Of a DNA stretch of 64,000 nt, positions 50,718 to 62,391 are shown piece by piece; the first letter of the stretch is position 1; each line of letters begins with the position of its first letter. The DNA lies in NCBI RefSeq assembly GCF_019977395.1, contig NZ_AP024660.1, positions 310,001 to 374,000 of the forward strand, read 5' to 3'. Source of the DNA: Arthrobacter sp. NicSoilC5. Its GTDB lineage: Bacteria > Actinomycetota > Actinomycetes > Actinomycetales > Micrococcaceae. Below the pieces are notes generated by a model, which was given only the letters and a program-made list of their open reading frames with translations, ran no database searches and was not told the origin of the DNA. A program made the position numbers and the translations under genes.

Positions 50718-51398
50718 TCACTTACCCGGCTTAGGGTAATGCGGAATTTCCTCCAACTCTCCGTTATGCCACCGCTTCCAACGGACGCCTGCTGTATCGG
50801 TGAACGTGGCATACGCGCCGCCCATCTGCTGCTCAAACTCCAAAAAGCTCTCGCTCTCACCCGCAAGGACGGACGTATACAGCTGCTGCTTACCGTCTCT
50901 GCCGTTACCTTTTTGGGTCGTAACTAGCGCCACGTTGAAAATCGCCAGCGTCCCGTCGTTCCGAACCTGGATGTTGAGACGCTCCTCTGGCTCATATCGT
51001 GGGTCCACTCTCAAAGGGAGGTACCTGGTAATGTTGACGGTCACCGTTTCCGCTTGCTGGCGCCGCCGCTTTACATCTTCAGCGTGTTTGTCACTTACTT
51101 GGCGGAAATAGGTCAGCGCAGCTATCAACGCTGCAGCCCCCGTGACAATCGCGCTAGCCATAGAGCCGATTCCGCTTAGCCAGGCCGCTGGCCCCTCTGG
51201 AGGTGTTGCTGTAGTGGGCGCCCCCGGGGTGGCAGATTCACCGTTTACCACTAAGGTCACCCAAACTATCGCCGTCACAGCACCTACTAGCAGAACGATC
51301 AGCAAAATGGTCTGAAGGCTAGGAATCCTGATAGTCCTATTCGCCGTTCCGTCCCACATCTCGCGCAGGGCACTGCGGCTAGGTAACCGTCTGGCCAA
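50718..51398 (-). CDS. Membrane-anchored protein with FxDxxGxxWxR motif
   Basis: 226 residues. Two hydrophobic segments (about 28-50 and 75-95) are followed by a coiled, charged linker (DKHAEDVKRRRQQAETVTV), then a beta-rich C-terminal domain ending FTDTAGVRWKRWHNGELEEI. The same architecture and end motif are found in the neighbours at 51424 and 51879 and in 57986. No known function. It is the last gene of a leftward block starting at 52956. Confidence 0.72.
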   Translation of the reverse strand: MARRLPSRSALREMWDGTANRTIRIPSLQTILLIVLLVGAVTAIVWVTLVVNGESATPGAPTTATPPEGPAAWLSGIGSMASAIVTGAAALIAALTYFRQVSDKHAEDVKRRRQQAETVTVNITRYLPLRVDPRYEPEERLNIQVRNDGTLAIFNVALVTTQKGNGRDGKQQLYTSVLAGESESFLEFEQQMGGAYATFTDTAGVRWKRWHNGELEEIPHYPKPGK

Positions 51399-51423
51399 AC
51401 GAATCTCTTTTCACTATTTCTTC

Positions 51424-51876
51424 CTAATCCATCGTCCAAGGAAAGCTGTCGCCGCTCTTTAGTTCGGTCAACTTCCCCGACCCATCTCTCTTCCAGGCAA
51501 CGCCCGCACTATCCACGAATTTCACGAATGGCATAAAGTCCGAGGTCGACATCTTGAAAGAGGCTTCCTCTGTCGGCGCGAGCACCGCGCGGACTTCCTT
51601 TCGGCGTGAATCGACTGGGCCGGCGTACAACAGGACGTTGTAAACGGGCAAGGGACTGTTGTTGCTGACGAAATACACGATCCCGCGTTTGAGTTCGCCT
51701 ATGTCGGTCCACTCCATCCACGGCCGATTTCCTACCGTCACACCGCTAGCTTGGGCGCGATGCTTGTCCTTCACCTGCTGCCGCAGCGTTACTGCGCCGA
51801 CCCAGAGGGCACCGACGGTTCCAACGGCTGCTGCTGCGTCGGAGATGGCGCTGACCCAGTCAGTTACGTCAGAAAT
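51424..51876 (-). CDS. Membrane-anchored FxDxxGxxWxR protein, probable ATT start
   Basis: 150 residues if begun at ATT 51876. Its N-terminal half reads DVTDWVSAISDAAAAVGTVG and ends in QQVKDKHRAQASGVTV. This parallels DWLSAIATFWGAVATAVGAL and EKRRAQASAVTL of the adjacent gene, and the C-terminus has FVDSAGVAWKRDGSG. In this frame there is no ATG, GTG or TTG between the upstream in-frame stop and the membrane segment. AACAGGA precedes ATT by 7 bases, and the upstream gene stops 2 bases before it. A start at GTG 51774 would cut off the membrane anchor. Confidence 0.65.
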   Translation of the reverse strand: MSDVTDWVSAISDAAAAVGTVGALWVGAVTLRQQVKDKHRAQASGVTVGNRPWMEWTDIGELKRGIVYFVSNNSPLPVYNVLLYAGPVDSRRKEVRAVLAPTEEASFKMSTSDFMPFVKFVDSAGVAWKRDGSGKLTELKSGDSFPWTMD

Positions 51877-51878
51877 GG

Positions 51879-52496
51879 TTAATTCCTGTTACCCGTTGAC
51901 AGCGGCTCTTCTACTAACCGTCCGTCGGCATAGCGTTTCCACTCAGCCCCCGCAGCGTCGCGGAACTCCACGAAGCTGGCTTCCTCGGTACTATCGACTG
52001 GCAGCGATTCGTCGTAAAGACCTCTTGGTCCAGTCAGGACCGGATGAAGGTAGTGTCGTTGCTTGTGCTGGCCCTCCGCATTGACGCCCACCATGTTCAT
52101 ACAAAAGATGGGAAGCGAACTATCGTTTCTCACGACAAACTCCCAAGTGGTGTGGGCGGCGGGCCTGGTCATTACCAGAGTCACGGCAGAGGCCTGGGCT
52201 CGGCGTTTCTCGACCAGTTCTTCATGGCGATCCTGACGTTGCTTCTCGTAGGTTCGAGCCGCGTACACGAGTGCTCCGCCGGTTAGCAGGGCTCCCACGG
52301 CAGTGGCGACGGCACCCCAAAATGTCGCTATCGCGCTCAGCCAGTCCGCGGCGCTCGGCGGCGTCTCAGACGTTGGGCCTTGGAGTAGGACTGAGCCGCA
52401 CACAACGATGGCTGCGAGCCCCAGCGGGAGGGCGATCGCGGCAAAGGTGACGGTCAGAGTCCTCTTGCTACCGGACTGTGGAGCCATGCCCATCAT
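51879..52496 (-). CDS. Membrane-anchored FxDxxGxxWxR protein
   Basis: 205 residues with two hydrophobic segments (about 18-40 and 58-82), a charged linker (EKQRQDRHEELVEKRRAQAS), and a beta-rich C-terminal domain with WEFVVRNDSSLPIFCMNMVG and the ending FRDAAGAEWKRYADGRL. It overlaps the upstream gene by 29 bases. Three close ATGs (52496, 52493, 52487) compete as the start. It is paralogous to its two downstream neighbours. The shared fold could sense or bind something near the membrane, but this is unknown. Confidence 0.72.
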   Translation of the reverse strand: MMGMAPQSGSKRTLTVTFAAIALPLGLAAIVVCGSVLLQGPTSETPPSAADWLSAIATFWGAVATAVGALLTGGALVYAARTYEKQRQDRHEELVEKRRAQASAVTLVMTRPAAHTTWEFVVRNDSSLPIFCMNMVGVNAEGQHKQRHYLHPVLTGPRGLYDESLPVDSTEEASFVEFRDAAGAEWKRYADGRLVEEPLSTGNRN

Positions 52497-52956
52497 TCTT
52501 CAGAAATACGGTCCACATAGTGCTGTTCGGCTGCTGGATGGAAGAGCAAGCAAATTGCATGGGGATGGTGTTGCCCGCCGGAGCATCGGTGTAACCCCCG
52601 GTGGTGTCATAGCTGCCGTCTGAGGCCTTGTACGTGGACTTGGTCTTGCCGGCCTGGATTGTGGCCGTGGGGTGGGTTTTCAGGAGCTTCTGCTCGCAGA
52701 CGTAATTCGCAGTCTTGGCGTCCTCAGCCCGCTGGTCTGCCAGAGCCTTCTCACCCGCCGCGGCAATGGCCGCCATCTTGGATTCTTCGGCGATCGCGCT
52801 GGCCTTGGCGTCCGCCTCCTGGCCCGCCCTGATCGCCTGGGAGCTGACTGCGATGGCGATGATGGCCAGCAGGACGACGATGGCCGCGCCGATGATGATG
52901 AGCAGCTTGTTGCGGCTGGCCGGCGGCTTTACTTCAGGCGCAGTTTCAGTGGACAT
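52468..52956 (-). CDS. Single-pass membrane protein
   Basis: 162 residues: a short proline-rich cytoplasmic N-terminus, one strong membrane helix (about 17-41, LLIIIGAAIVVLLAIIAIAV), an alanine/glutamate-rich coiled-coil stretch (about 45-80) and an exposed C-terminal domain with two cysteines (YVCEQKL, FACSSIQ) that could form a disulfide. First gene of the leftward block. AAAGAAG precedes the ATG. Confidence 0.68.
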   Translation of the reverse strand: MSTETAPEVKPPASRNKLLIIIGAAIVVLLAIIAIAVSSQAIRAGQEADAKASAIAEESKMAAIAAAGEKALADQRAEDAKTANYVCEQKLLKTHPTATIQAGKTKSTYKASDGSYDTTGGYTDAPAGNTIPMQFACSSIQQPNSTMWTVFLKNDGHGSTVR

Positions 52957-53073: not shown

Positions 53074-53110
53074 AGCCCCGACAAAAACAAGGCGCGTTTG
53101 GGTCGGGGCT
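53074..53110. terminator. Bidirectional-type hairpin between the divergent blocks
   Basis: AGCCCCGAC (53074-53082) and GTCGGGGCT (53102-53110) form a perfect 9-bp stem. Leftward it is followed by TTTTTGTG, the usual terminator ending, so it could attenuate the leftward block. The loop contains AAACAAGGCGC, the same string found downstream of both duplicated promoters. Confidence 0.6.
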
Positions 53111-53156
53111 ATGTTTTGAATTATAACGCCTGTAGAAAAGGGGTGCAATATCACTA

Positions 53157-53185
53157 TTGCATTTCCAAAGTGCTTGGCGCATAAT
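53157..53185 (+). promoter_or_regulatory. Sigma-70-type promoter, module copy 1
   Basis: TTGCAT (53157-53162), a 17-base spacer and CATAAT (53180-53185). The spacer end AAAGTGCTTGGCG and the downstream CACATAAACAAGGCG are repeated almost exactly at 59944-59972. It drives the small-gene operon starting at 53213, whose ribosome site lies in the shared ACAAGG. Confidence 0.82.
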
Positions 53186-53212
53186 AAGGTCACATAAACA
53201 AGGCGCAAATAA

Positions 53213-53362
53213 ATGTCCAAACTTCCCCGTTATATCAATTCCCCTTCCTGGCGCCGTGCCGGAAATGAAGTAATCAACTGGTTAGCCGGAGCGGCTTATA
53301 TCGCTACGTTCTTCCTTGCCCTCATCTTCCTGGGCCTCGCCCTCACGGGAGGTGCGCGATGA
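53213..53362 (+). CDS. Small single-pass membrane protein
   Basis: 49 residues: a basic N-terminus (MSKLPRYINSPSWRRAG) and one C-terminal hydrophobic helix (AAYIATFFLALIFLGLALTG). ACAAGG lies 9-10 bases before ATG. It is first in the rightward operon behind promoter copy 1 and overlaps the next gene by ATGA. No family is recognised. Confidence 0.65.
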   Translation: MSKLPRYINSPSWRRAGNEVINWLAGAAYIATFFLALIFLGLALTGGAR

Positions 53363-53484
53363 ACCTCATAGATAAGGTCTGGGTCACTAAGCTCAAGTTC
53401 AACATGGGCCTACTTCCACGTAATGACTACATCGATCTCTTGAACCTGTACTACGCCAAGGCGGTGCAGTCGGAGAGCAAATAG
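53359..53484 (+). CDS. Small hypothetical protein
   Basis: 41 residues (MNLIDKVWVTKLKFNMGLLP, then RNDYIDLLNLYYAKAV), overlapping the previous gene by ATGA and ending directly at the ATG of the next (TAG-ATG). The tight packing supports expression. No function is proposed. Confidence 0.6.
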   Translation: MNLIDKVWVTKLKFNMGLLPRNDYIDLLNLYYAKAVQSESK

Positions 53485-53715
53485 ATGCCTACCCAGAAGG
53501 AACGCATCCTTGATCTGCTGGAAGAGCGCGGTCAGCAAGGTGTCCTGAATATCGAGCTAAACGAAATCTGCTTCCGCTACGGTGGCCGGCTTCATGAGCT
53601 CCGCCAAGAGGGCTATCGCATTCGTACAACACAGGTGAAAGGCCCGGTCTTCCGGTTCACTCTGCTAGACCCAGGCGAACCGCAGTACCAGGACTTCCTA
53701 GAGGCCGCTGCATGA
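53485..53715 (+). CDS. Phage-type winged-helix/HTH protein
   Basis: 76 residues: MPTQKERILDLLEERGQQGV, then LNEICFRYGGRLHELRQEGY with RIRTTQVKGPVFRFTL. This is the pattern of small phage HTH proteins that often sit in early operons (HTH_36-like helix-turn-helix followed by a wing). It may bind DNA. It starts directly after the previous stop and overlaps the next ORF by ATGA. Confidence 0.65.
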   Translation: MPTQKERILDLLEERGQQGVLNIELNEICFRYGGRLHELRQEGYRIRTTQVKGPVFRFTLLDPGEPQYQDFLEAAA

Positions 53716-53876
53716 ACGGAATCACACTCTGCTGCTACTGCAAGCAGCCCCGGCAGTTCTCGCTCGACCTCCACGGCTGCCCCGAATCCCTAGTCGCCAT
53801 GAAGCGCCTCGACGCAGTCATAGAAGTCATCATCGGCATCCAGCTCGACCGGAAGCCCAAACTCATAACTAAATAG
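53712..53876 (+). CDS. Small cysteine-rich protein
   Basis: 54 residues with CCYCKQ and HGCP, a possible zinc-binding knuckle, then a helical tail. It starts in ATGA overlap with the HTH gene. Its stop TAG is followed by AGGAACC, which before the IS insertion served as the ribosome site of the gene now at 55133. Confidence 0.6.
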   Translation: MNGITLCCYCKQPRQFSLDLHGCPESLVAMKRLDAVIEVIIGIQLDRKPKLITK

Positions 53877-53916
53877 GAACCATCGGGACTGCCCCGGCTT
53901 TTGTTGACTCGGGGTC

Positions 53917-54783
53917 TTAGGCCGCTATGAGCTCGGTCCGGTTGATTGTTTCATATTCGATGGGCGTGAGCTTTCCCAGCCGTCTTTGCCGTCGCCGGCG
54001 GTGGTAAGTCCGCTCGATCCACGTTGTGATGGACAGCCGGAGGTCCCGCCTGGTGAGCCACCGCTGACGGTCCAAAACGTTCTTCTGCAGCAGCGAGAAG
54101 AACGATTCCATAGCGGCGTTATCCGCACACGCACCGACCCTGCCCATCGACCCCGTGAGGCCGTGGTGGCGGAGCGTTTCGACGAAGCGGCGGGACCGGA
54201 ACTGGGACCCGCGATCGGAGTGCACCACTGTCCCCGCCGGGCGGCGTGCCCGTACGGCGTTCTCCAGCGCTGCCACCGCCAACGAGGACTTCATTCGCGA
54301 GTCCATCGAGTAGCCCACGATCCTTCCGGAATAGACGTCTTTCACCGCGCAGAGATAGAGCTTCCCCTCGGTGGTTGGGTGTTCGGTGATGTCCGTCAGC
54401 CACAGCTCATTCGGAGCCACGGCGGTGAAGTCCCGCTCCACCAGGTCGTCATGAACCGGCGGCCCGGGCTTCCGGTTCAGGCCCCGCTTCTTGGAGAACA
54501 CCGACCAGATGCCGTGGTCCCTGCACAGCCGCTGGACCCTGTTCTCACCCGCCTTAATGCCCTTCTCCGGGAGCTCGTCGGCGATGAAACGGTACCCGAA
54601 TGCGGGATCGTCGGCGTGGATGTCCAAGGCGGCGTTGACCAGGTGCGCGTCGACCCAGTCCCGTTCCGTCACCGGACTGGCCTTCCACCGGTAATAGCCT
54701 TGCTTGCTGAACTTCAACACCCTGCAGGTCACCGCCACGGGAACACCGCCGGCGGCAAGATCCGTGACCAGCGGGTACGTCAT
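53917..54783 (-). CDS. IS3-family transposase OrfB
   Basis: A 288-residue integrase-core transposase. It has an HTH_21 region (FGYRFIADELPEKGIKAGEN) and then an rve core with the DDE acids: Asp in LWLTDITEHPT, Asp in VVHSDRGSQF and Glu in NAAMESFFSLLQ. It overlaps OrfA by 4 bases. It is normally made as an OrfAB fusion by -1 frameshifting. It appears intact. Confidence 0.93.
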   Translation of the reverse strand: MTYPLVTDLAAGGVPVAVTCRVLKFSKQGYYRWKASPVTERDWVDAHLVNAALDIHADDPAFGYRFIADELPEKGIKAGENRVQRLCRDHGIWSVFSKKRGLNRKPGPPVHDDLVERDFTAVAPNELWLTDITEHPTTEGKLYLCAVKDVYSGRIVGYSMDSRMKSSLAVAALENAVRARRPAGTVVHSDRGSQFRSRRFVETLRHHGLTGSMGRVGACADNAAMESFFSLLQKNVLDRQRWLTRRDLRLSITTWIERTYHRRRRQRRLGKLTPIEYETINRTELIAA

Positions 54784-55070
54784 TTTGGGTTGATGTCCCT
54801 GGCCAGATAGGCAGCCGCCCGGCGGAGAATCTCGTTCTCCTGCTCCAACAGGCGGTTGCGTTTCTTCAGCTCCCGCATCTCAGCCGACTCAGCGGCCGCC
54901 GGGCCAGCCCCGGAATCTTTACGCTCAGAGATGGCAATCCATCGCTTCAGCGTGGTGATCGAAAGCCCGAAATCCTTCGCAATCTGCGCCAGAGGCGCCT
55001 CACCCTTGCGGGCCACATCAATAACATCCTGGCGGAACTCCGCCCCATAAGGCGTGGGCATGGTCAACAT
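54780..55070 (-). CDS. IS3-family transposase OrfA
   Basis: 96 residues: an HTH_Tnp_1 domain (YGAEFRQDVIDVARKGEAPL, IAKDFGLSITTLKRWI) and a C-terminal leucine zipper (MRELKKRNRLLEQENEILRR). It binds the IS ends and contributes the N-terminus of the OrfAB transposase. Confidence 0.92.
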   Translation of the reverse strand: MLTMPTPYGAEFRQDVIDVARKGEAPLAQIAKDFGLSITTLKRWIAISERKDSGAGPAAAESAEMRELKKRNRLLEQENEILRRAAAYLARDINPK

Positions 55071-55132
55071 CCTTCCACGAGCACAAGCTCGCTAGGTCAA
55101 GGAGTCAACAAAACCGGGGGCAGTCCCATCCA

Positions 55133-55468
55133 ATGCAAGACACCATTACGCCACTCGTTTCGAAAGTAGCTGAACTAAAAGCCCAACTGGCCCCGCTTGA
55201 GGCCCAGATGAAGCCGCTAGTCGAAGAGCTGGAAATAACCAAGATCGCCCTCATGCAGGCCATGCAGCAGTCCAAGAGCAAGCGCACCGAAGCGGTCGAC
55301 GGCTACTACGTCGTCAGGGCCGAGCGGAAGAGCTTCAACATCACTGACCCGTCTGCCGTTGATGAATGGCTGGGGGACAACGGCTTCGACCTAGGTGAGT
55401 ACTATAAGCTCGACAGCGCCCGCGTGAAAGCCGCCGCCGAAAGCGCCTCAAAAACGACGGTGAACTGA
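55133..55468 (+). CDS. Phage-type helical protein (Gp157/Gam-like region)
   Basis: 111 residues. A coiled-coil N-terminal half (about 5-50) is followed by EAVDGYYVVRAERKSFNITD, VDEWLGDNGFDLGEYYKLDS and a helical end. This arrangement is seen in phage early-operon proteins near recombination genes, such as Gp157 or Gam-like families. The match is by pattern only. It lost its ribosome site AGGA to the IS insertion; only a GGGGG of the IS end, 12 bases before ATG, remains. Confidence 0.65.
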   Translation: MQDTITPLVSKVAELKAQLAPLEAQMKPLVEELEITKIALMQAMQQSKSKRTEAVDGYYVVRAERKSFNITDPSAVDEWLGDNGFDLGEYYKLDSARVKAAAESASKTTVN

Positions 55469-55523
55469 TCCCCGGAGTAGAGGTGAACAGCACCGAGTAT
55501 CTGACTGTGAAGGCGGCATAGCC

Positions 55524-55724
55524 ATGGCAAAGCTCATACTCGACGCAAAAGAAGTCAGAAAGGCCTTGCTCGATTACGTCATCACAAACTATCGGGACTC
55601 TCTCGGCCTCAACTACACGGAGGCCACATCCTCAAATGCCCATGACCTGATTGAGTGGACGGATTACCGGCTCCAGGTGACCGAGGAACTCGTGTTCAGC
55701 CGGAAGGAGGTGGAAAGTGAATAA
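55524..55724 (+). CDS. Small hypothetical phage-like protein
   Basis: 66 residues, acidic and helical (MAKLILDAKEVRKALLDYVI). Its end overlaps the ERF gene by 8 bases. Between it and the previous gene a 12-codon ORF (55483-55521) may only serve coupling. No family is recognised. Confidence 0.6.
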   Translation: MAKLILDAKEVRKALLDYVITNYRDSLGLNYTEATSSNAHDLIEWTDYRLQVTEELVFSRKEVESE

Positions 55725-56385
55725 TCATTCGGAGCAGCTCAACGATCTAGCCAAGGCCCTAGTAGCGGCGCAGGGCGAGTTTCCTACCGTCGCCAAAGAC
55801 AGCAATAACCCGTTCTTTAAGTCCAAGTACGCTGCCCTGCCTGAAGTTATGAAAGCCGCTGGCCCCGTTCTGACCAAGCACGGTTTAGCCGTCAGCCAGT
55901 TCGTGACACACGAGGGAAGCGAGAGCCAGCTTCAGACTTACCTGCTTCACGAGAGCGGGCAGTTCATCACCCACGCCATGCCCCTGCTCCTGACCAAGCA
56001 GGACGCCCAGGGCCAGGGGAGCGCCATCACCTACGCCCGCCGCTACAGCTATATGGCTGTCTTGGGACTGGTAGCCGATGAGGACGACGACGGCAACGCT
56101 GCCAGCCGCCTACAGACAAAGCCGCCGCTCGTCATCATGCCCGCTCCAGCTCATATGTCCGAAAAGCCAGTAGTAACAGATAATCCTGCCGCCACAATCA
56201 CCGCCGACCAGGCTAAAGAGCTGATGCAGATAGCCAAGATGAAAGGCCACACCGACCGGGCTAATGCTGTCGCCTTCCTGAATGAAGCCACCGGCCTCTC
56301 AGACTTCACCGATATGCCTGCCGACGAGTTCGACCTGTACAAGAAGCGGGTGACGACTGCCGGCTGGGGCAAGGCTGATAACTAG
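55717..56385 (+). CDS. erf: ERF family single-strand annealing protein
   Basis: A 222-residue phage recombinase of the ERF superfamily: LNDLAKALVAAQGEFPTVAK, NPFFKSKYAALPEVMKAAGP and VLTKHGLAVSQFV form the signature N-terminal domain (about 5-60). GQGSAITYARRYSYMAVLGL (about 98-117) is the conserved centre. It anneals complementary single strands in phage recombination. The C-terminal part (about 150-222) is a variable helical tail. The start is GTG 55717, with GGAGG upstream. This is the clearest sign that the island is phage-derived. Confidence 0.93.
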   Translation: MNNHSEQLNDLAKALVAAQGEFPTVAKDSNNPFFKSKYAALPEVMKAAGPVLTKHGLAVSQFVTHEGSESQLQTYLLHESGQFITHAMPLLLTKQDAQGQGSAITYARRYSYMAVLGLVADEDDDGNAASRLQTKPPLVIMPAPAHMSEKPVVTDNPAATITADQAKELMQIAKMKGHTDRANAVAFLNEATGLSDFTDMPADEFDLYKKRVTTAGWGKADN

Positions 56386-56396
56386 GTGCCGTTCTA

Positions 56397-56819
56397 ATGA
56401 AGCCGGAAATCGAACTCCTAGTAGCCGAGTTGACCCTATTCAACTCGATGTTCGCCGACGGCCGCATCGGCTCGATGACCCTCGACGAGCTGGCCGACCT
56501 GAGCGTGAAGATCAGCGCCTACAAAGTCTTCCTAGGGGAGCACGTGGCCGCCCTGGAACGGGACGCCGACCTGGCCGAAGCTCACTATGAGCTAGTGCGG
56601 GAGCAAGCGTATAGGGACACCCGCAAATCAGGCGCGACCGGAGCCGACAGCGACAATGCCAAGCGCATCCAGTCCGCAATTGAAAAAGAAGCTTGGATTG
56701 ATGCTAAGTACCAGTTCAAGGTCGTATCCAACCTCTGGCGGGACACCAGCTCCCTACTCGACACGCTCCGTAGCCGGTTGAGCTACGAGAAGATCGAGCT
56801 GGGGGAGGCCAAACGATGA
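56397..56819 (+). CDS. Hypothetical phage-like protein
   Basis: A 140-residue, almost entirely helical protein (FNSMFADGRIGSMTLDELAD; long amphipathic helices from about 45). It follows the ERF gene by 11 bases and overlaps the next ORF by ATGA, so it is in the same early operon. A recombination accessory role is possible by position only. Confidence 0.62.
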   Translation: MKPEIELLVAELTLFNSMFADGRIGSMTLDELADLSVKISAYKVFLGEHVAALERDADLAEAHYELVREQAYRDTRKSGATGADSDNAKRIQSAIEKEAWIDAKYQFKVVSNLWRDTSSLLDTLRSRLSYEKIELGEAKR

Positions 56820-56935
56820 GCTGTCGCCACCTTTGGATCGTCCTTTTGAACTTCCAGCAGTGGAACGAGCACCGGCTTTGCATGAACTGTGGGGAGCGGA
56901 TTCTGCGGGCAAAACTAAACAAGAGGGAAAAGTAG
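56816..56935 (+). CDS. Small zinc-knuckle-like protein
   Basis: 39 residues with SCRHLW and LCMNCGER, a C-H...C-x2-C arrangement that could bind zinc, and a basic tail. It starts in ATGA overlap and ends directly at the next ATG (TAG-ATG). Confidence 0.58.
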   Translation: MSCRHLWIVLLNFQQWNEHRLCMNCGERILRAKLNKREK

Positions 56936-57424
56936 ATGTCAGTCGACCTGGCGCAGCTAAAGCGCATCCGGGACCTAGAGAAAGACACAGACCAAGGGAG
57001 CGTCGCACTCAAGTCCATCAAGGAACGGCGCACCGACCTCATTACCGCCATGGATGAGTTCGCCGAGCTGGAGCAAGCCCAGGCAGCTGTCAGGGCCGCG
57101 AGCGTCCGGCTCAAGTTGGCCATCCGGTCCAATGCTGAACTCACTGCACTGGAAGAACTGCGGGAGGACGAAGCCTGGCACCTGCATGACCTGAAGCACT
57201 AGCTCAGTCTGAACCTCATCGCCTACCGGGAGGATACCGCCCGCGACGTAGTGCAGGACTCTGACGGCCGCAACCGGAAGATCGAGCTGACAGCCAAGCT
57301 ATCCAGGGCCAACAAGCGGGTACTCGACCAGACCAAGATGTCGTTCAGCCAGCACTTCGGGAATCGGATAGCGATACCGGAAGCGCCGGCGGCGAAGCAA
57401 TTACTGATAACGGAGAACCTATGA
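56936..57424 (+). CDS. Helical phage-like protein interrupted by an in-frame TAG
   Basis: The first 88 codons (56936-57199: MSVDLAQLKRIRDLEKDTDQ to REDEAWHLHDLKH) end at TAG 57200-57202. The same frame then stays open for 73 more codons with protein-like composition (LNLIAYREDTARDVVQDSDG, RNRKIELTAKLSRANKRVLD, FSQHFGNRIAIPEAP). It ends at TGA 57422-57424, directly abutting the next gene's ATG. No ribosome site or usual start follows the TAG. The gene may be recently truncated, or the TAG (followed by C) may be read through. No family is known. Confidence 0.6.
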
Positions 57425-57787
57425 ATGGAGAAGCTAGTAGTCACTCTCGAAACATCGCGGCGGCTTAAGGCTGCGGGGTTCCCCGGCGAGGGCACGTTCT
57501 GGTGGCTGAAGGAGCCGCACCGGCCCTGGGCCGTCGGCATTACGAAGTTCGGTGCCAGCAACCGCGTAGCCGACCCCACCGCCCAAGAGATAGCCGACCG
57601 GCTTGACTGGCGATTGCCTCTCCGCAGCGGAGGCGACTCAGAACGCTCCCTGCACGGCGGTAAGGCTGAGGGCGGTTGGTTTTTCTACTACGGACAGCCG
57701 TGGCCCCTGATTGCCAGTGGCGACACCATGGCGGAAGCCCTCGCCCAACTATGGCTCACACTAAACGAATCTAAGGAGACCAAATAG
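57425..57787 (+). CDS. Phage-like protein, paralogue of 60465
   Basis: 120 residues: MEKLVVTLETSRRLKAAGFP, GTFWWLKEP, PTAQEIADRLDWRL and a C-terminal AEALAQLWLTLNESKETK. The same frame of motifs (LVVTLET, KLKAAGF, SAQEIIDQL, AEALALLWIDLQEAK) recurs in the gene at 60465, so the two are paralogues in the two modules. Similar proteins occur in phages. Function unknown. Confidence 0.7.
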   Translation: MEKLVVTLETSRRLKAAGFPGEGTFWWLKEPHRPWAVGITKFGASNRVADPTAQEIADRLDWRLPLRSGGDSERSLHGGKAEGGWFFYYGQPWPLIASGDTMAEALAQLWLTLNESKETK

Positions 57788-57973
57788 ATGCCAGGAACAG
57801 CTATCGGCGGTAAAAAAGCCGCTGCAAGCAATAAGCAAAGATACGGCGCCGACTTTTACCGGCAGATTGGCCGAGCCGGCGGTAAGAAGAGCAAAGGCGG
57901 TGGCTTCGCCTTCGACCACGAGCGCGCGGTCTACTGGGGGGAGCGTCGGCGGGAAGGCCTCCCGGAAGAGTAA
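57788..57973 (+). CDS. Small KGG-motif protein (general stress protein-like)
   Basis: 61 residues, glycine- and lysine-rich: GGKKAAASNKQRYGADFYRQ, IGRAGGKKSKGGGFA. This matches the short phage/plasmid version of the KGG (GsiB-type) family. It begins right after the previous stop (TAG-ATG). It is the last gene of the rightward operon of module 1. Possibly nucleic-acid associated. Confidence 0.75.
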   Translation: MPGTAIGGKKAAASNKQRYGADFYRQIGRAGGKKSKGGGFAFDHERAVYWGERRREGLPEE

Positions 57974-57985
57974 GGCGGCCTAAGA

Positions 57986-58459
57986 CTAGCCGCTATCGGC
58001 TACCGCAAAGAGGAGGCGATGACGGGGAAGCACTCGCCCGCCTTTGTCTCTAATCCACCGGGCACCTGAGTTATCACGAAAAGTCACCAGTGGGGCTTCG
58101 TCAAATTGAGCATTGAGCGTGAAAGCTTTTTCCGGCAGCAGAATATCGTATTCTGCTGCAAGCCATCTGCGTGATCCGTCCTGATGACGAGCGTATAACC
58201 TTATGTCGTATATAGGCTCCTCGCTAAGGTTCTGCACGATGTAACGTGTACTCATATCGAAGCTCACATTGCCATCAGCATCGGTAGAAGCGGGGATGCC
58301 GAACTCCTCGGTGATGTAAACCACCTTCCGAGCCTGCGATAACTTCCTTACTTTGGCATCCCGATTAATCACTATGGCTGTGGCGACGAAAGCCGCCGTA
58401 GTGCCGAGCCCGCCAACCCAGTCAGCGACGGTGCCCCAGGTGTCAGGGTTGAAGTCCAC
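57986..58459 (-). CDS. Membrane-anchored FxDxxGxxWxR protein
   Basis: 157 residues: one hydrophobic helix near the N-terminus (about 10-32, TVADWVGGLGTTAAFVATAI), a charged linker, and a beta-rich domain with STRYIVQNLSEEPIYDIRLY and the end motif FRDNSGARWIRDKGGR. This is the same layout as 50718, 51424 and 51879. GTG 58459 has GGAG 8 bases upstream; GTG 58468 is the alternative. It overlaps the upstream gene by a few to 26 bases. Confidence 0.68.
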   Translation of the reverse strand: MDFNPDTWGTVADWVGGLGTTAAFVATAIVINRDAKVRKLSQARKVVYITEEFGIPASTDADGNVSFDMSTRYIVQNLSEEPIYDIRLYARHQDGSRRWLAAEYDILLPEKAFTLNAQFDEAPLVTFRDNSGARWIRDKGGRVLPRHRLLFAVADSG

Positions 58460-58994
58460 TAGAGTCACTCCCTAGGTCTAGGCGAATAAGTCTTTCTAGC
58501 TCGATGGACTTTTGGTCAAAGGTGACGTCGAGGTGAATTTCCTTCATTAAGTCCTTAGCCTTGGCCGCGTTGATCAGGTCATAGGCGAGCCCGATCGTGT
58601 CCAGTGCGCATTTCTGGACGTGTTCTGGTGCGAAGAGTTCCATATGGAGAGTTTCAAGCGCGTTACTGCGTTCTTGGACGACACTGTCGATCTCGTCCTT
58701 TAGATTGCCGACCTTGATGTCGTGGGCTGAGCCCACTAGGACACGCAATTGCAGGAGGAAGTTCACGTACGCATCTACCTTGCGATCCCTTAGCCACTTC
58801 TCGTGCTCGGAGGCTCGGTCCCGCTGCCATTGCTCGTGCTGGGCTGATCGATCACGATTCCATTGGTCTTTTGAGGCTTCAATAGTCGCCTGAGTGTTCT
58901 TGCGGTTGTAGCCACCTGCTATAAGGGCACCCCCCAAGCCGGCTATGACAGCTCCCATGAGGGTGCCAATCAGCCGTATCGTCTCCTGATCCAT
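58443..58994 (-). CDS. Single-pass membrane protein with coiled coil
   Basis: 183 residues: a glycine-rich N-terminal membrane helix (IRLIGTLMGAVIAGLGGALI) and a long charged repeat-like helix with three WxRDR units (DQWNRDRSA, EQWQRDRAS, EKWLRDRKV at about 43-72). A helical cytoplasmic domain follows. ATG overlaps the upstream stop by one base (TAATG). Unknown function. The repeated WxRDR pattern is distinctive. Confidence 0.68.
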   Translation of the reverse strand: MDQETIRLIGTLMGAVIAGLGGALIAGGYNRKNTQATIEASKDQWNRDRSAQHEQWQRDRASEHEKWLRDRKVDAYVNFLLQLRVLVGSAHDIKVGNLKDEIDSVVQERSNALETLHMELFAPEHVQKCALDTIGLAYDLINAAKAKDLMKEIHLDVTFDQKSIELERLIRLDLGSDSSGLQP

Positions 58995-59671
58995 TAGGAC
59001 AGTTTGTCAGACCACACGCCGCTCTTCTTGCTGCGGCGTATAGCGTAGATGGTGATGAAGCATCCAAGTCCGAAGAGCAACCAACCAAAAGCTCCAAGTT
59101 TGGAAAGTTCCTCTGGCACGCCTGTTAGAACGATCCCGGACATGATTGGCAGCAGACCGATGGAATCAATCACCACCGATTCTTGCTCTTTTGCCTTCAA
59201 CTCTGACTGAAGGGCTATCAGGGCAGTACGAGTTTCCTCACTGATGCCTTGCAAGTGGCGGATAACATTTTCATTATTCTGGATGAACCCCTCGAAGCGC
59301 TGCTCAAGACGTTGCAGCTCTTCACGAATCCACTTGTGCTTCTCATCCGCCGTTCCGTCGGCCGGCCAAGGGTTGCTAACAAAGACCGAGGGCGTGCCCA
59401 TTGTTGCTCTCGTCGTCCCAGCACCACCAAGTTGTACGTTTGCGGACCTGTGCTTTCGGGTTATCCAGAGATACAGTTTCTTCAATTCATCCCAGTTGCG
59501 CTTAGCCGCATCAAGGAACCTGCCGTATCCATGCCGAATCACGTGCGGAACGGCTAGGCCGGCTCCGATGATCGCCATGAGCACTCCGCCCCACTTGTTG
59601 AATCCTTCAAGTAGAGGTGCGTTGTTCCAAAAGGCGTCGAGGAGAAACTGTCCGACAGTTACCTGGTCCAT
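58994..59671 (-). CDS. Multi-pass membrane protein with central coiled coil
   Basis: 225 residues: an N-terminal hydrophobic segment (about 25-45), a cytoplasmic basic/coiled-coil part (about 95-165, EELQRLEQRFEGFIQNNENV), and two C-terminal hydrophobic segments (about 175-215). I chose ATG 59671; a TTG at 59701 is in frame. First gene of the second leftward block, divergent from promoter copy 2. No family is recognised. Confidence 0.65.
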   Translation of the reverse strand: MDQVTVGQFLLDAFWNNAPLLEGFNKWGGVLMAIIGAGLAVPHVIRHGYGRFLDAAKRNWDELKKLYLWITRKHRSANVQLGGAGTTRATMGTPSVFVSNPWPADGTADEKHKWIREELQRLEQRFEGFIQNNENVIRHLQGISEETRTALIALQSELKAKEQESVVIDSIGLLPIMSGIVLTGVPEELSKLGAFGWLLFGLGCFITIYAIRRSKKSGVWSDKLS

Positions 59672-60001
59672 GTGCTCAAGGCTACAAGAGGGGACCGACA
59701 AAATCTGTTCGGGTGGGTGGACATAAAAGAGCCAGCTTGCACCGCCTCGGCTGTCAAGGCTTCACGGCTAAATTATGTTCTAATATGCATGGCATAATTA
59801 TCATCCCCAAAATCTTGTCAAGGTTTAGGTTCGATACAGCCCGACCGCCGCGCCGTTAAATCGACATTGGACGACCCGAACAAGCATGGCGAAAAATTAT
59901 CGAAATTGAAATCTGTCAACTACCGGCAGTGTGGAAAAGAGTATTGCAATTGTAAAGTGCTTGGCGCATAATCTAGGGCACATAAACAAGGCGTCAAAAT
60001 C
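59672..60001. promoter_or_regulatory. Divergent region of module 2
   Basis: About 330 bases, AT-rich between 59760 and 59950, with no gene. It holds promoter copy 2 and presumably the leftward promoter of the membrane-protein block. Confidence 0.6.
59944..59972 (+). promoter_or_regulatory. Sigma-70-type promoter, module copy 2
   Basis: TTGCAA (59944-59949), a 17-base spacer and CATAAT (59967-59972). Thirteen spacer bases and the following CACATAAACAAGGCG are the same as in copy 1 at 53157. It drives the operon starting at 60002. Confidence 0.82.
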
Positions 60002-60166
60002 ATGCAGCAACAATTGCTGACCGAAACCGACCCGCTAACTGCGCTTTACATTACGAAGCGTATGTTGAAGGAAGTCCGAAAGAACAAACCAACCCGGCCA
60101 TATCATGCAGCCCGCACTTGTAAATCGAACGGGTGTGTCTGGCATAAGCGGAGAACGGCGAAATGA
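60002..60166 (+). CDS. Small basic hypothetical protein
   Basis: 54 residues: MQQQLLTETDPLTALYITKR, then a basic C-terminus with CKSNGCVWHKRR. ACAAGG 10 bases before ATG is the box shared by both promoter copies. It overlaps the next gene by ATGA. No family. Confidence 0.6.
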   Translation: MQQQLLTETDPLTALYITKRMLKEVRKNKPTRPYHAARTCKSNGCVWHKRRTAK

Positions 60167-60465
60167 TAAGTCCGCGCGCGCTCCTAATCTCCGGCCTCAT
60201 CGCCATCGCCGTCACAACTTTCGCCGGTGCCGGTATGTCATCCAGCGAACTCGACCTGCCCGGGCTGAACCAGCGCATCGACAACATCGACGCCCGCACT
60301 ACCAACAACGAGCAGGACATCCAGGCGCTCCAGGCGTCCACCAGCACCACGCCGGCCCCGCACGTTGATGTCCCGGTAGCGCCCAGCTCGACCACGACTA
60401 CGACAACCACCACCACCTCGACAGCTTCCGCTCCGGCGGATCCAGCGACAGGGGAGTGCCGGTGA
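60163..60465 (+). CDS. Secreted or membrane-anchored protein with Thr-rich tail
   Basis: 100 residues: an N-terminal hydrophobic signal or anchor (MISPRALLISGLIAIAVTTF), a short helical coil (LNQRIDNIDARTTNNEQDIQ), and a low-complexity tail of nine consecutive Thr among Ser/Pro/Ala. It probably lies outside the membrane as a stalk-like region. It overlaps the next gene's start (GTGATG). Confidence 0.6.
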   Translation: MISPRALLISGLIAIAVTTFAGAGMSSSELDLPGLNQRIDNIDARTTNNEQDIQALQASTSTTPAPHVDVPVAPSSTTTTTTTTTSTASAPADPATGECR

Positions 60466-61019
60466 TGGAATCCCTAGTAGTCACCCTTGAAACAGCTAAG
60501 AAGCTAAAGGCGGCAGGGTTCTGGCAGCAAGCCCAGTACCACTGGCACACTGATGAAGACGGACTTGTGGAATTGAAGCAGGGCAATGGCTTCACGGGCC
60601 AAGGCCTCAAGCGCCACGACAGCTTCTCTGCCCCTAGCGCTCAAGAGATTATCGATCAACTGCCGCAGTTCATGAACCACGAGGGCCGGGAGCTTCGTCT
60701 TGAAATATCTCCGTCAGGCTTTCGTCCAGGAAAGTACCGAAGTCCATGGCTCGCTTACTTCGATAACAAGACTAGCGACTACATTCCGCACCTCGCCAGC
60801 GCTCCGAATATCGCTGAAGCCCTCGCGCTGCTGTGGATTGATTTGCAGGAAGCGAAGTTGTGGGGGAGTACGCCGACATCCAACTTCTACCCGGCCAGGT
60901 GGTCTACAACGACCCTGACGGCTTACTCCAGGCACAAAAAGAGGAGCAGCCGAAGAAGACTGCTCCCCGTATGGGGAAGATGGATTCACTTTCAGACCTG
61001 CCGGGCTTCAATGTGGTGA
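60465..61019 (+). CDS. Phage-like protein, paralogue of 57425, with aberrant C-terminus
   Basis: 184 residues as read. Up to about residue 132 it follows the 57425 protein (MESLVVTLETAKKLKAAGFW, PSAQEIIDQL, AEALALLWIDLQEAK). Where the paralogue stops, this frame runs on for about 50 residues of Arg/Ser-rich sequence that overlaps, in another frame, the well-formed ORF at 60860. The tail therefore looks like an accidental extension after loss of the original stop. GGGGAG lies 8 bases before ATG 60465. Confidence 0.62.
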   Translation: MESLVVTLETAKKLKAAGFWQQAQYHWHTDEDGLVELKQGNGFTGQGLKRHDSFSAPSAQEIIDQLPQFMNHEGRELRLEISPSGFRPGKYRSPWLAYFDNKTSDYIPHLASAPNIAEALALLWIDLQEAKLWGSTPTSNFYPARWSTTTLTAYSRHKKRSSRRRLLPVWGRWIHFQTCRASMW

Positions 61020-61027
61020 AACGATGA
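60860..61027 (+). CDS. Small hypothetical protein overlapping the previous gene
   Basis: 55 residues from GTG 60860 (MGEYADIQLLPGQVVYNDPD, EEQPKKTAPRMGKMDSLSDL, PGFNVVKR), with normal composition and an ATGA overlap to the following ORF. It is more convincing than the overlapping tail of 60465. It has no good ribosome site, so it may be translated by coupling. Confidence 0.5.
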   Translation: MGEYADIQLLPGQVVYNDPDGLLQAQKEEQPKKTAPRMGKMDSLSDLPGFNVVKR

Positions 61028-61805: not shown

Positions 61806-62129
61806 TTAGTGGGCGGCCTGGTACTTTTCCAAGATGTCCTGCTGGATACGGCCGCGGGCGTTCACCTTGAAGCCGTTGTCCAAGGCCCACATCCTGACGG
61901 CGTGAGTATCCGTCTTTGACGTGCTGGCCTTACGACCAGCCGGGCGACCGCGACCACCGGATGTTTTACGACCGGCATTGGTAAAGCGTTCCAGAGCTGA
62001 GCGAAGTTCACTCGCGTGGTCGTTATTCAAATCGATTTCGTATTCAGTGCCATCAAGGGCAAAAGATACCGTCTCCGCGCCTTCTGAGCCGTCGAGGTCA
62101 TCTTCGAGGATTGTCACAGTGCGTTTCAT
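61806..62129 (-). CDS. lsr2: Lsr2 family nucleoid-associated protein
   Basis: A 107-residue xenogeneic silencer paralogue. The N-terminal oligomerisation domain (about 1-60) has VTILEDDLDGSEGAETVSFA and LDGTEYEIDL. A basic linker has GGRGRPAGRK, and the C-terminal AT-rich-DNA-binding domain (about 70-107) has VRMWALDNGFKVNARGRIQQ and DILEKYQAAH. The GRPAG and ARGR segments resemble the AT-hook-like RGR motif. It is carried inside the phage-like element, so it probably manages expression of the element or the host genes. A palindrome lies between its ribosome site and start. Confidence 0.93.
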   Translation of the reverse strand: MKRTVTILEDDLDGSEGAETVSFALDGTEYEIDLNNDHASELRSALERFTNAGRKTSGGRGRPAGRKASTSKTDTHAVRMWALDNGFKVNARGRIQQDILEKYQAAH

Positions 62130-62145
62130 AGTAAGCAAGCTTACT
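62130..62145 (-). promoter_or_regulatory. Palindrome in the lsr2 leader
   Basis: AGTAAGC (62130-62136) and GCTTACT (62139-62145) are exact reverse complements around AA, placed directly before the Lsr2 ATG and overlapping the region of its GGAG box. It could be an operator or an RNA hairpin that masks the ribosome site. Confidence 0.55.
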
Positions 62146-62178
62146 CCAATTATGCCGGAGAGATGATCGGCAGAGTCC

Positions 62179-62391
62179 CTAACTGAAGGGATACGTGAAG
62201 GGGCCATAAAACGGTTGAGTGAATCGCCAAATCGTAAAGGGTGTACCGATGACTAGGAACACCACTGCCAAGATGATGGATGAGCGACGGTCCCAAGTCT
62301 GAGTAATCGCTGTATATAGGAAAGCGATGCCAGCCGTGATAAGAAAAAGAGGTCCAATAGTCACCATGAGCCACTCGACGATGTACCCCAT
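62179..62391 (-). CDS. Small membrane protein
   Basis: 70 residues with two hydrophobic segments (about 10-28 and 38-56). GGAGGGA lies 7 bases before ATG, a strong ribosome site. It is upstream of lsr2 on the same strand and divergent from 62433 with a 41-base gap. No family. Confidence 0.65.
   Translation of the reverse strand: MGYIVEWLMVTIGPLFLITAGIAFLYTAITQTWDRRSSIILAVVFLVIGTPFTIWRFTQPFYGPFTYPFS

Follow-up and report, generated by a model that had tools for sequence, protein, structure and literature searches.

Twin early promoters and a predicted antisense hairpin RNA in an Arthrobacter prophage family

Why would one small phage-like gene cluster carry the same promoter twice? The window analysed here is a stretch of 64,000 nucleotides (nt) from the genome of Arthrobacter sp. 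NicSoilC5 (NZ_AP024660.1, positions 310,001 to 374,000), and positions are those of the window unless stated. Near its right end lie two almost identical promoters, P1 and P2, each heading an operon of short genes, which an initial annotation made from the letters alone had attributed to a common regulator and to an element of two homologous modules. The same promoter pair was found in related prophages, together with a hairpin upstream of P1 whose loop is antisense to the leaders of both operons. We consider it an even proposition that these are the twin early promoters of an Arthrobacter-type temperate phage family, with operons repressed by a phage antisense RNA of ~50 nt and with an input from DnaA. 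The best-supported part of this reading is that the twin promoters would be under shared control and that an antisense hairpin RNA, predicted beside P1, would act on the leader of operon 1; the leader of operon 2 is probably a target too.

Two near-identical promoters, unique in the genome

The promoters and their leaders are as follows.

53157..53185, + strand: promoter P1 (TTGCAT, 17-bp spacer, CATAAT; shared core AAAGTGCTTGGCGCATAAT), kept in related prophages
53191..53205, + strand: P1 leader CACATAAACAAGGCG, including the Shine-Dalgarno word; start codon at 53213
59944..59972, + strand: promoter P2 (TTGCAA, 17-bp spacer, CATAAT)
59979..59993, + strand: P2 leader CACATAAACAAGGCG, including the Shine-Dalgarno word; start codon at 60002

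Boxes, spacers and coordinates agree with the initial annotation, and the two sites are indeed identical over 13 spacer bases (AAAGTGCTTGGCG) and over the downstream word CACATAAACAAGGCG. A 40-bp pattern in the P2 register matched once in the window and never in 100 shuffles, P1 escaping it because of a one-base shift. AAGGCG ends 20 bases after the end of CATAAT at P1 but 21 at P2, and the ten leaders of the five elements compared below span 18 to 23; since this spacing varies, the downstream block does not form a rigid unit with the promoter. In all ten leaders, AAGGCG stops 7 or 8 nt short of the start codon. We read it as the Shine-Dalgarno region, and the conservation of the block may therefore be partly translational.

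The 16-mer GTGCTTGGCGCATAAT has two exact copies in the window, a count that 10 of 100 shuffles also reach when up to 3 mismatches are allowed. Across the 4,691,366-bp genome it is exact solely at P1 and P2, with no site at one or two mismatches and nine at three, and hence does not represent a housekeeping promoter. That reading, which the initial annotation had raised against itself, was rejected on this count and on the family scan of the same 16-mer (see below). A palindrome at the -10 (ATGC-N5-GCAT) looks operator-like in G116, one of the related elements, and is not kept in U293, another; it was not relied on.

The promoter pair changes in parallel within related prophages

Five elements were compared: the copy in the window (window copy), the prophage of Arthrobacter sp. 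OY3WO11 (taken to be UViG_2690315906, G395), G432, G116 and U293 (IMG/VR UViG_2929927954). A sixth, G423, was added for the hairpin. The layout of the window copy, which it had been suggested to look for in other genomes, recurs in the other four. The core CTTGGCGCATAAT is exact in both promoters of the window copy, G116, OY3WO11 and G432, and U293 carries a parallel variant, CTTGGCTCATAAT, again in both.

If P1 and P2 had separated before the elements did and evolved independently since, P1 should not prefer the P2 of its own element. We scored P1 against P2 across the five elements under 120 permutations. For core plus leader, the within-element score was 183 (permutation mean 166.6), and the true pairing was the only one of the 120 to reach it. 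The core alone gave 2/120, the leader alone 6/120, and the upstream 45 nt, used as a control, 91/120. A caution comes from G116, whose two promoters agree at just 7 of the 14 bases of the -35 half. This within-element resemblance supports a shared trans-acting factor or an exchange between both sites, five elements being few. The common regulation initially proposed is thus indirectly supported by the pair kept in OY3WO11, G432 and G116, by the doubled variant of U293 and by a true pairing that ranks best of 120.

Relatives of the HTH_39 winged-helix protein encoded in operon 1 occur in 10 of 206 genomes of the genus; among the eight besides the window copy and OY3WO11, only G432 has the motif pair. 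In the genus of G116, the only carrier among 38 genomes is G116 itself. A family-wide scan found the 16-mer (≤1 mismatch) in 13/395 genomes, twice and in promoter context only in the window copy and G116; the remaining 11 have a single match each, without the downstream leader as judged from the printed context. The joined motif had no match in a scan of viral contigs, nor did the OY3WO11 P1 region among phage and plasmid records. The motif is also absent from the sister prophages G381, UViG_2609459742 (L258) and UViG_2751185874 (L259); L262 had too little in common to be used. Separately, a lone related promoter, ATTGGCGCATAAT, followed by ACGGACATAAA and AAGG, was seen in G499 (L092 near 2404, - strand; G499:C44:179402), where it precedes a small gene in a different phage-like region.

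A hairpin upstream of P1 repeats the leader word

Aligning the regions upstream of P1 revealed a GC-rich stem with a loop that repeats the leader word, terminator-like when read leftward.

53074..53110, - strand: hairpin proposed as an antisense RNA, with a stem of 9 bp and a T-rich tail on its left
53120..53148, - strand: proposed leftward promoter of the hairpin RNA (TTGCAC, 17-bp spacer, TATAAT), from sequence

In the window copy the loop is antisense to AAACAAGGCGC in the leader of P1 and to AAACAAGGCG in that of P2. The six copies fold with z scores of -2.67 to -4.36 (Table 1); a first automatic search had chosen other stems in the window copy and G423, and both were placed from the alignment. 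A consensus scan places a terminator-like site at 53093-53075 on the minus strand. TATAAT lies 8 or 9 nt before the stem in the window copy, OY3WO11 and G432, and U293 has TAAAAT. With a covariance model built from the other five copies, the window-copy hairpin ranked first of 17 matches in 44-64 kb (E 9e-4), with its own plus strand next (E 1e-3); the model test thus finds the stem and leaves the strand unsettled. Rfam 15 gave no match at E up to 1 in window positions 48-64 kb and none at gathering score in the five relatives. When viral contigs were scanned with a hairpin pattern, the pattern proved too permissive (at least 120 stretches), and the loci were set aside.

Table 1. Hairpin folding energy (kcal/mol); longest perfect loop match to the P1 and P2 leaders (nt); duplex energy at P1 and P2.
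Window copy: -20.2; 11 and 10; -19.0 and -16.7
OY3WO11: -24.3; 10 and 9; -22.8 and -19.3
G432: -25.7; 12 and 10; -24.6 and -20.0
G116: -25.7; 12 and 10; -24.6 and -19.3
U293: -21.4; 10 and 10; -22.8 and -19.6
G423: -25.8; pairing given in the text

Each loop was searched against the stretch of its own element on both strands, and perfect matches of 9-12 nt fall on the P1 and P2 leaders in the five elements. The next best match is of 8 nt in the window copy and 9 nt in G432; two other 9-mers tie with P2 in OY3WO11, and one other 10-mer does so in G116. Regarding duplex energy, no window elsewhere pairs better than the P1 leader in G432 or G116, two do in OY3WO11 and eight in the window copy. 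When true and permuted pairings were compared, the observed sum was reached by 6/120 for P1 and 16/120 for P2, the six P1 permutations being ties because three elements share a leader. The U293 loop reaches 10 at both of its own leaders and no more than 8 at any other, and the loops of OY3WO11, G432 and G116 reach 8 or less against the window-copy and U293 leaders, suggesting that pairing is partially specific.

Several observations weigh against the antisense reading. Shuffled loops often reach matches of 9-10, so that the evidence lies in where the matches fall. The U293 loop finds an unrelated 11-mer that beats both of its leaders and another 10-mer level with them, and 12 windows elsewhere pair better than its P1. 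For G423, the leader is absent among loop matches of at least 8, and the P1 duplex is poor (-15.7, with 270 better windows). The window-copy loop also matches the P2 leaders of U293 (at 11) and of G116 and G432 (at 10). Pairing with P2 is weaker throughout, with 30 better windows in the window copy, 66 in OY3WO11, 11 in G432, 47 in G116 and 80 in U293; from duplex energies and better-window counts, P1 is the stronger and P2 the weaker predicted target. The leftward -10 is degenerate in G116 and G423, and the leftward promoter of the window copy is not listed by the consensus scan. In a wider model search over 24 sources the window-copy hairpin had an E of 0.024 and was outranked by several unrelated hairpins. 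Base-pair covariation is thin, with a two-sided change in 1 of 10 pairs, and 89 of 500 shuffles do equally well.

The same facts might be explained by a protein. One phage protein could bind an AAGGCG-centred operator, in DNA or RNA, at three sites (just downstream of the leftward start, of P1 and of P2), leaving the hairpin as a mere terminator that carries a site. This is the main rival to the antisense RNA, and on balance we find it rather unlikely. It would account for one word standing at three promoter-proximal places and changing jointly within elements, and the element does encode HTH_39 and Lsr2-like proteins. Yet the matched stretch slides around the Shine-Dalgarno word, extending on its upstream side in the window copy and on its downstream side in OY3WO11, G432, G116 and U293; it contains small indels, which are less of an obstacle to base pairing than to a fixed protein site; and the distance from the -10 to the word varies over 18-23 bases. 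Because of the sliding and the indels we favour an RNA.

Another possibility, which we regard as distinctly unlikely, is that the twin promoters answer only to common sigma-factor and translation-initiation constraints. The loop word would then be left over from a leader duplication, and the hairpin would be no more than the usual terminator separating divergent operons. The word does contain a Shine-Dalgarno sequence 7-8 nt before the start, and repeated start-associated sequences are known in cluster K mycobacteriophages (PMC3203893). However, loop and leaders share element-specific letters beyond the Shine-Dalgarno (TCTAA in OY3WO11, G432 and G116; ATCAA in U293), and no promoter core precedes the loop word.

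Putting these elements together, the leftward promoter would give a transcript of roughly 50 nt that consists of hardly more than a terminator hairpin. Through its loop this RNA would pair with the Shine-Dalgarno regions in front of the first genes of the two operons, better in operon 1 than in operon 2. Since the genes overlap (ATGA), a block at the opening start codon would turn down the whole operon in each case. In OY3WO11, G432 and G116, host DnaA at a box upstream of the -35 would tie early transcription to the replication state of the host, and a promoter-binding phage protein may act as well. The full picture has a ~50-nt hairpin RNA shutting down both early operons together, loop and leaders diverging in concert so that related phages gain new specificities, and DnaA, bound at both promoters, reporting the host replication state; it is a tentative picture that we place somewhat short of an even chance.

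DnaA boxes precede the promoters in several relatives

The input from DnaA is a second and separate proposal, which we infer from words upstream of the early promoters.

59930..59938, + strand: TGTGGAAAA of the window copy, which differs at one base from the DnaA-box word TGTGNATAA and lies 5 nt ahead of the P2 -35

TGTGNATAA, on either strand, is found exactly twice in OY3WO11 (37,443 bp), G432 (20 kb) and G116 (26 kb), one copy upstream of each promoter, and once in G423 (20 kb), 31 nt upstream of its -35. Base composition predicts 0.23 to 0.61 copies per stretch (0.35-0.61 for the first three). The gap between box and -35 is 5 nt at both promoters of OY3WO11 and at P2 of G432 and G116, and 29-30 nt at P1 of G116 and G432. 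A composite of the box, 5 nt, TTG, 20 nt and YATAAT had three exact matches in the 206 genus genomes, all at these promoters, and none when reversed as a control; allowing one mismatch added three more (window-copy P2, G423 with another word, and G400). The host chromosomes use the same words as the phage boxes: TTATCCACA occurs twice in the gap after dnaA, before the gene read as dnaN, in the window-copy host, OY3WO11 and G432, and also upstream of dnaA, there accompanied by TTATGCACA in the window-copy host and OY3WO11.

Two facts count on the other side. The window copy has no exact TGTGNATAA, and the word is absent from U293; lacking a box there, an input from DnaA cannot be general. In the sister prophages G381, L258 and L259, whose promoter cores are different ones, a DnaA box, AGGGG and TTTACA precede the P2-like genes, which we count as weak support. 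A second DnaA box lies near a different hairpin in G381 and L258.

The locus is the early region of a decayed prophage

This stretch belongs to a temperate tailed-phage prophage that has decayed, and represents its early region. As initially described, rightward genes are short and several overlap as ATGA, and the leftward blocks encode predicted membrane-anchored proteins, as read from their sequences.

50718..52956, - strand: leftward membrane-protein block 1 (50718, 51424, 51879, 52468)
53213..53876, + strand: operon 1, first four short genes (53213 small membrane protein; 53359; 53485 HTH_39 winged helix; 53712 small cysteine-containing protein), with homologues in G116, OY3WO11 and U293
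53885..55127, - strand: IS3-type insertion within operon 1, with inverted ends, 89.5% identical to ISAcl2 of a Pseudarthrobacter plasmid
55133..57973, + strand: remainder of operon 1 (DUF7307-like 55133, ERF recombinase 55717, split gene 56936/57251, paralogue 57425, 57788)
57986..59701, - strand: leftward membrane-protein block 2 (57986, 58443, 58994)
59821-59794, - strand: consensus promoter of block 2 (TTGACA-16-AATTAT)
60002..61027, + strand: operon 2 (60002, 60163, 60465 as paralogue of 57425, 60860)
61806..62207, - strand: Lsr2-like nucleoid protein (Pfam Lsr2, E 1.7e-22)

The winged helix and the ERF recombinase of operon 1 were recognised at E 8.4e-6 and 1.7e-23, respectively, and the DUF7307-like protein scores below the family cut-off. 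The insertion separates the first four genes of operon 1 from the recombinase genes, and an in-frame stop splits 56936/57251 (56936-57424), a single frame in OY3WO11, G432 and U293. No virion gene set was seen among the window-copy open reading frames (ORFs) read. Because of the insertion, the split gene and this absence, we take the window copy to be a remnant. A terminase-small-like ORF at genome position 376158, recognised by eye against U293, belongs to the right part of the same prophage.

The initial annotation had instead suggested a phage satellite or a defence/accessory island made of two duplicated modules, which now appears highly improbable. The window copy does lack a virion gene set in the ORFs read, and its modules do share promoters, one rightward gene pair and one membrane-protein family. 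Against this, the OY3WO11 prophage, with the same early region, encodes terminase, portal, protease, capsid, tape measure, a CHAP endolysin and a serine integrase, and G432 and U293 also have structural genes. Of ten element proteins searched against the PADLOC library, nine had no match and the tenth hit a generic helix-turn-helix at E 0.013, so no defence family was recognised. The duplication stands only in part. Promoters and leaders, 57425 and 60465 (paralogous as claimed, at 33% identity, E 1.7e-13) and the leftward 51424/51879 versus 57986 are the only clear paralogues between modules; most genes of the two are not paralogous, and duplication of whole modules was reduced to these parts. 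The 57425/60465 pair has two homologues in the sister prophage G381 and one, in the P2 operon, in OY3WO11.

Among phage records, the OY3WO11 capsid matches 464 of 50,697, all below 60% identity; the winged-helix protein has distant relatives only, in 5 Bacillus and Brevibacillus phages; and the protein of 60163 has none. The membrane-anchored proteins 50718, 51424, 51879 and 57986 (50718-52496, 57986-58468) form a family with a related C-terminal stretch, found leftward of both promoters, for which nothing scored above Pfam, NCBIfam or PADLOC cut-offs.

Some further features were noted around the element. The segment 50110-50345 (+ strand) is a candidate for a structured RNA, with a folding energy of -81 kcal/mol (z -3.64) that 1 of 200 shuffles equalled, and it has no Rfam match. 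Short matches to it occur in G423 (L090 3627-3647 and 3826-3869) and G116 (L029 12676-12717), and a start and end resembling it were seen, by eye only, near G381 1942330. The left end of the OY3WO11 prophage (L031 3357-6316) encodes two proteins with close homologues in G381: one of 723 aa, which resembles a conjugation-type ATPase as read from its sequence, and one that is replication-initiation-like (PHROG 2190, E 2.4e-8). Right of the window, after the prophage remnant (genome C1:376517-380764), a 1415-aa protein has the look of an HSP90/sacsin-like ATPase at its N-terminus and is a possible accessory gene.

Comparison with known systems

The CI RNA of phage P4, also small, pairs with leader sequences and in this way controls early expression of the phage. 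It acts through transcription termination, differing in this from the present proposal. We found no report of such an RNA in Arthrobacter phages in a literature search, which says nothing beyond that search. If the proposal is true, a single antisense RNA of the phage governs a pair of early operons in an actinobacterial host and has a loop that varies from relative to relative in step with its targets, a specificity set by RNA that reporters could test directly. The DnaA boxes would link host replication to phage early transcription outside lambda. Other temperate phages, in which protein-based annotation would miss such RNAs, can be scanned for the signature in DNA, a hairpin loop that recurs in two leaders further downstream.

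In lambda, the OOP RNA is made from pO, DnaA sites lie downstream of pO, and DnaA stimulates pR (PMC3985674; OOP also in PMC12197685). The present locus would resemble it in combining a small antisense RNA gene with an early promoter region that has host DnaA sites. Unlike in lambda, one box stands upstream of the -35 at each of two early promoters, and the predicted RNA, unlike OOP, targets the leaders of separate operons and is not encoded opposite its target. The SAS/ESAS of cluster K mycobacteriophages are repeated phage-specific words with a Shine-Dalgarno match before gene starts (PMC3203893). Our word is also phage-specific, repeated and matched to the Shine-Dalgarno just 5' of starts, but it occurs at only two start sites and, on the opposite reading, in a hairpin loop, and is fused to a shared promoter core.

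The c4 RNA of P1 and P7 pairs through its loops around a ribosome-binding site, and the sar RNA of P22 blocks initiation of ant translation (PMC12197685). The RNA predicted here would likewise be a small phage RNA, antisense over a translation start. It differs from both in being a single terminator-like hairpin with two predicted targets that open two early operons, in residing in an actinobacterial prophage, and in having no identified antirepressor gene and no Rfam family match. Should its transcript be found, the hairpin RNA of this prophage family would count as a further form of phage antisense RNA of the sar/c4 kind.

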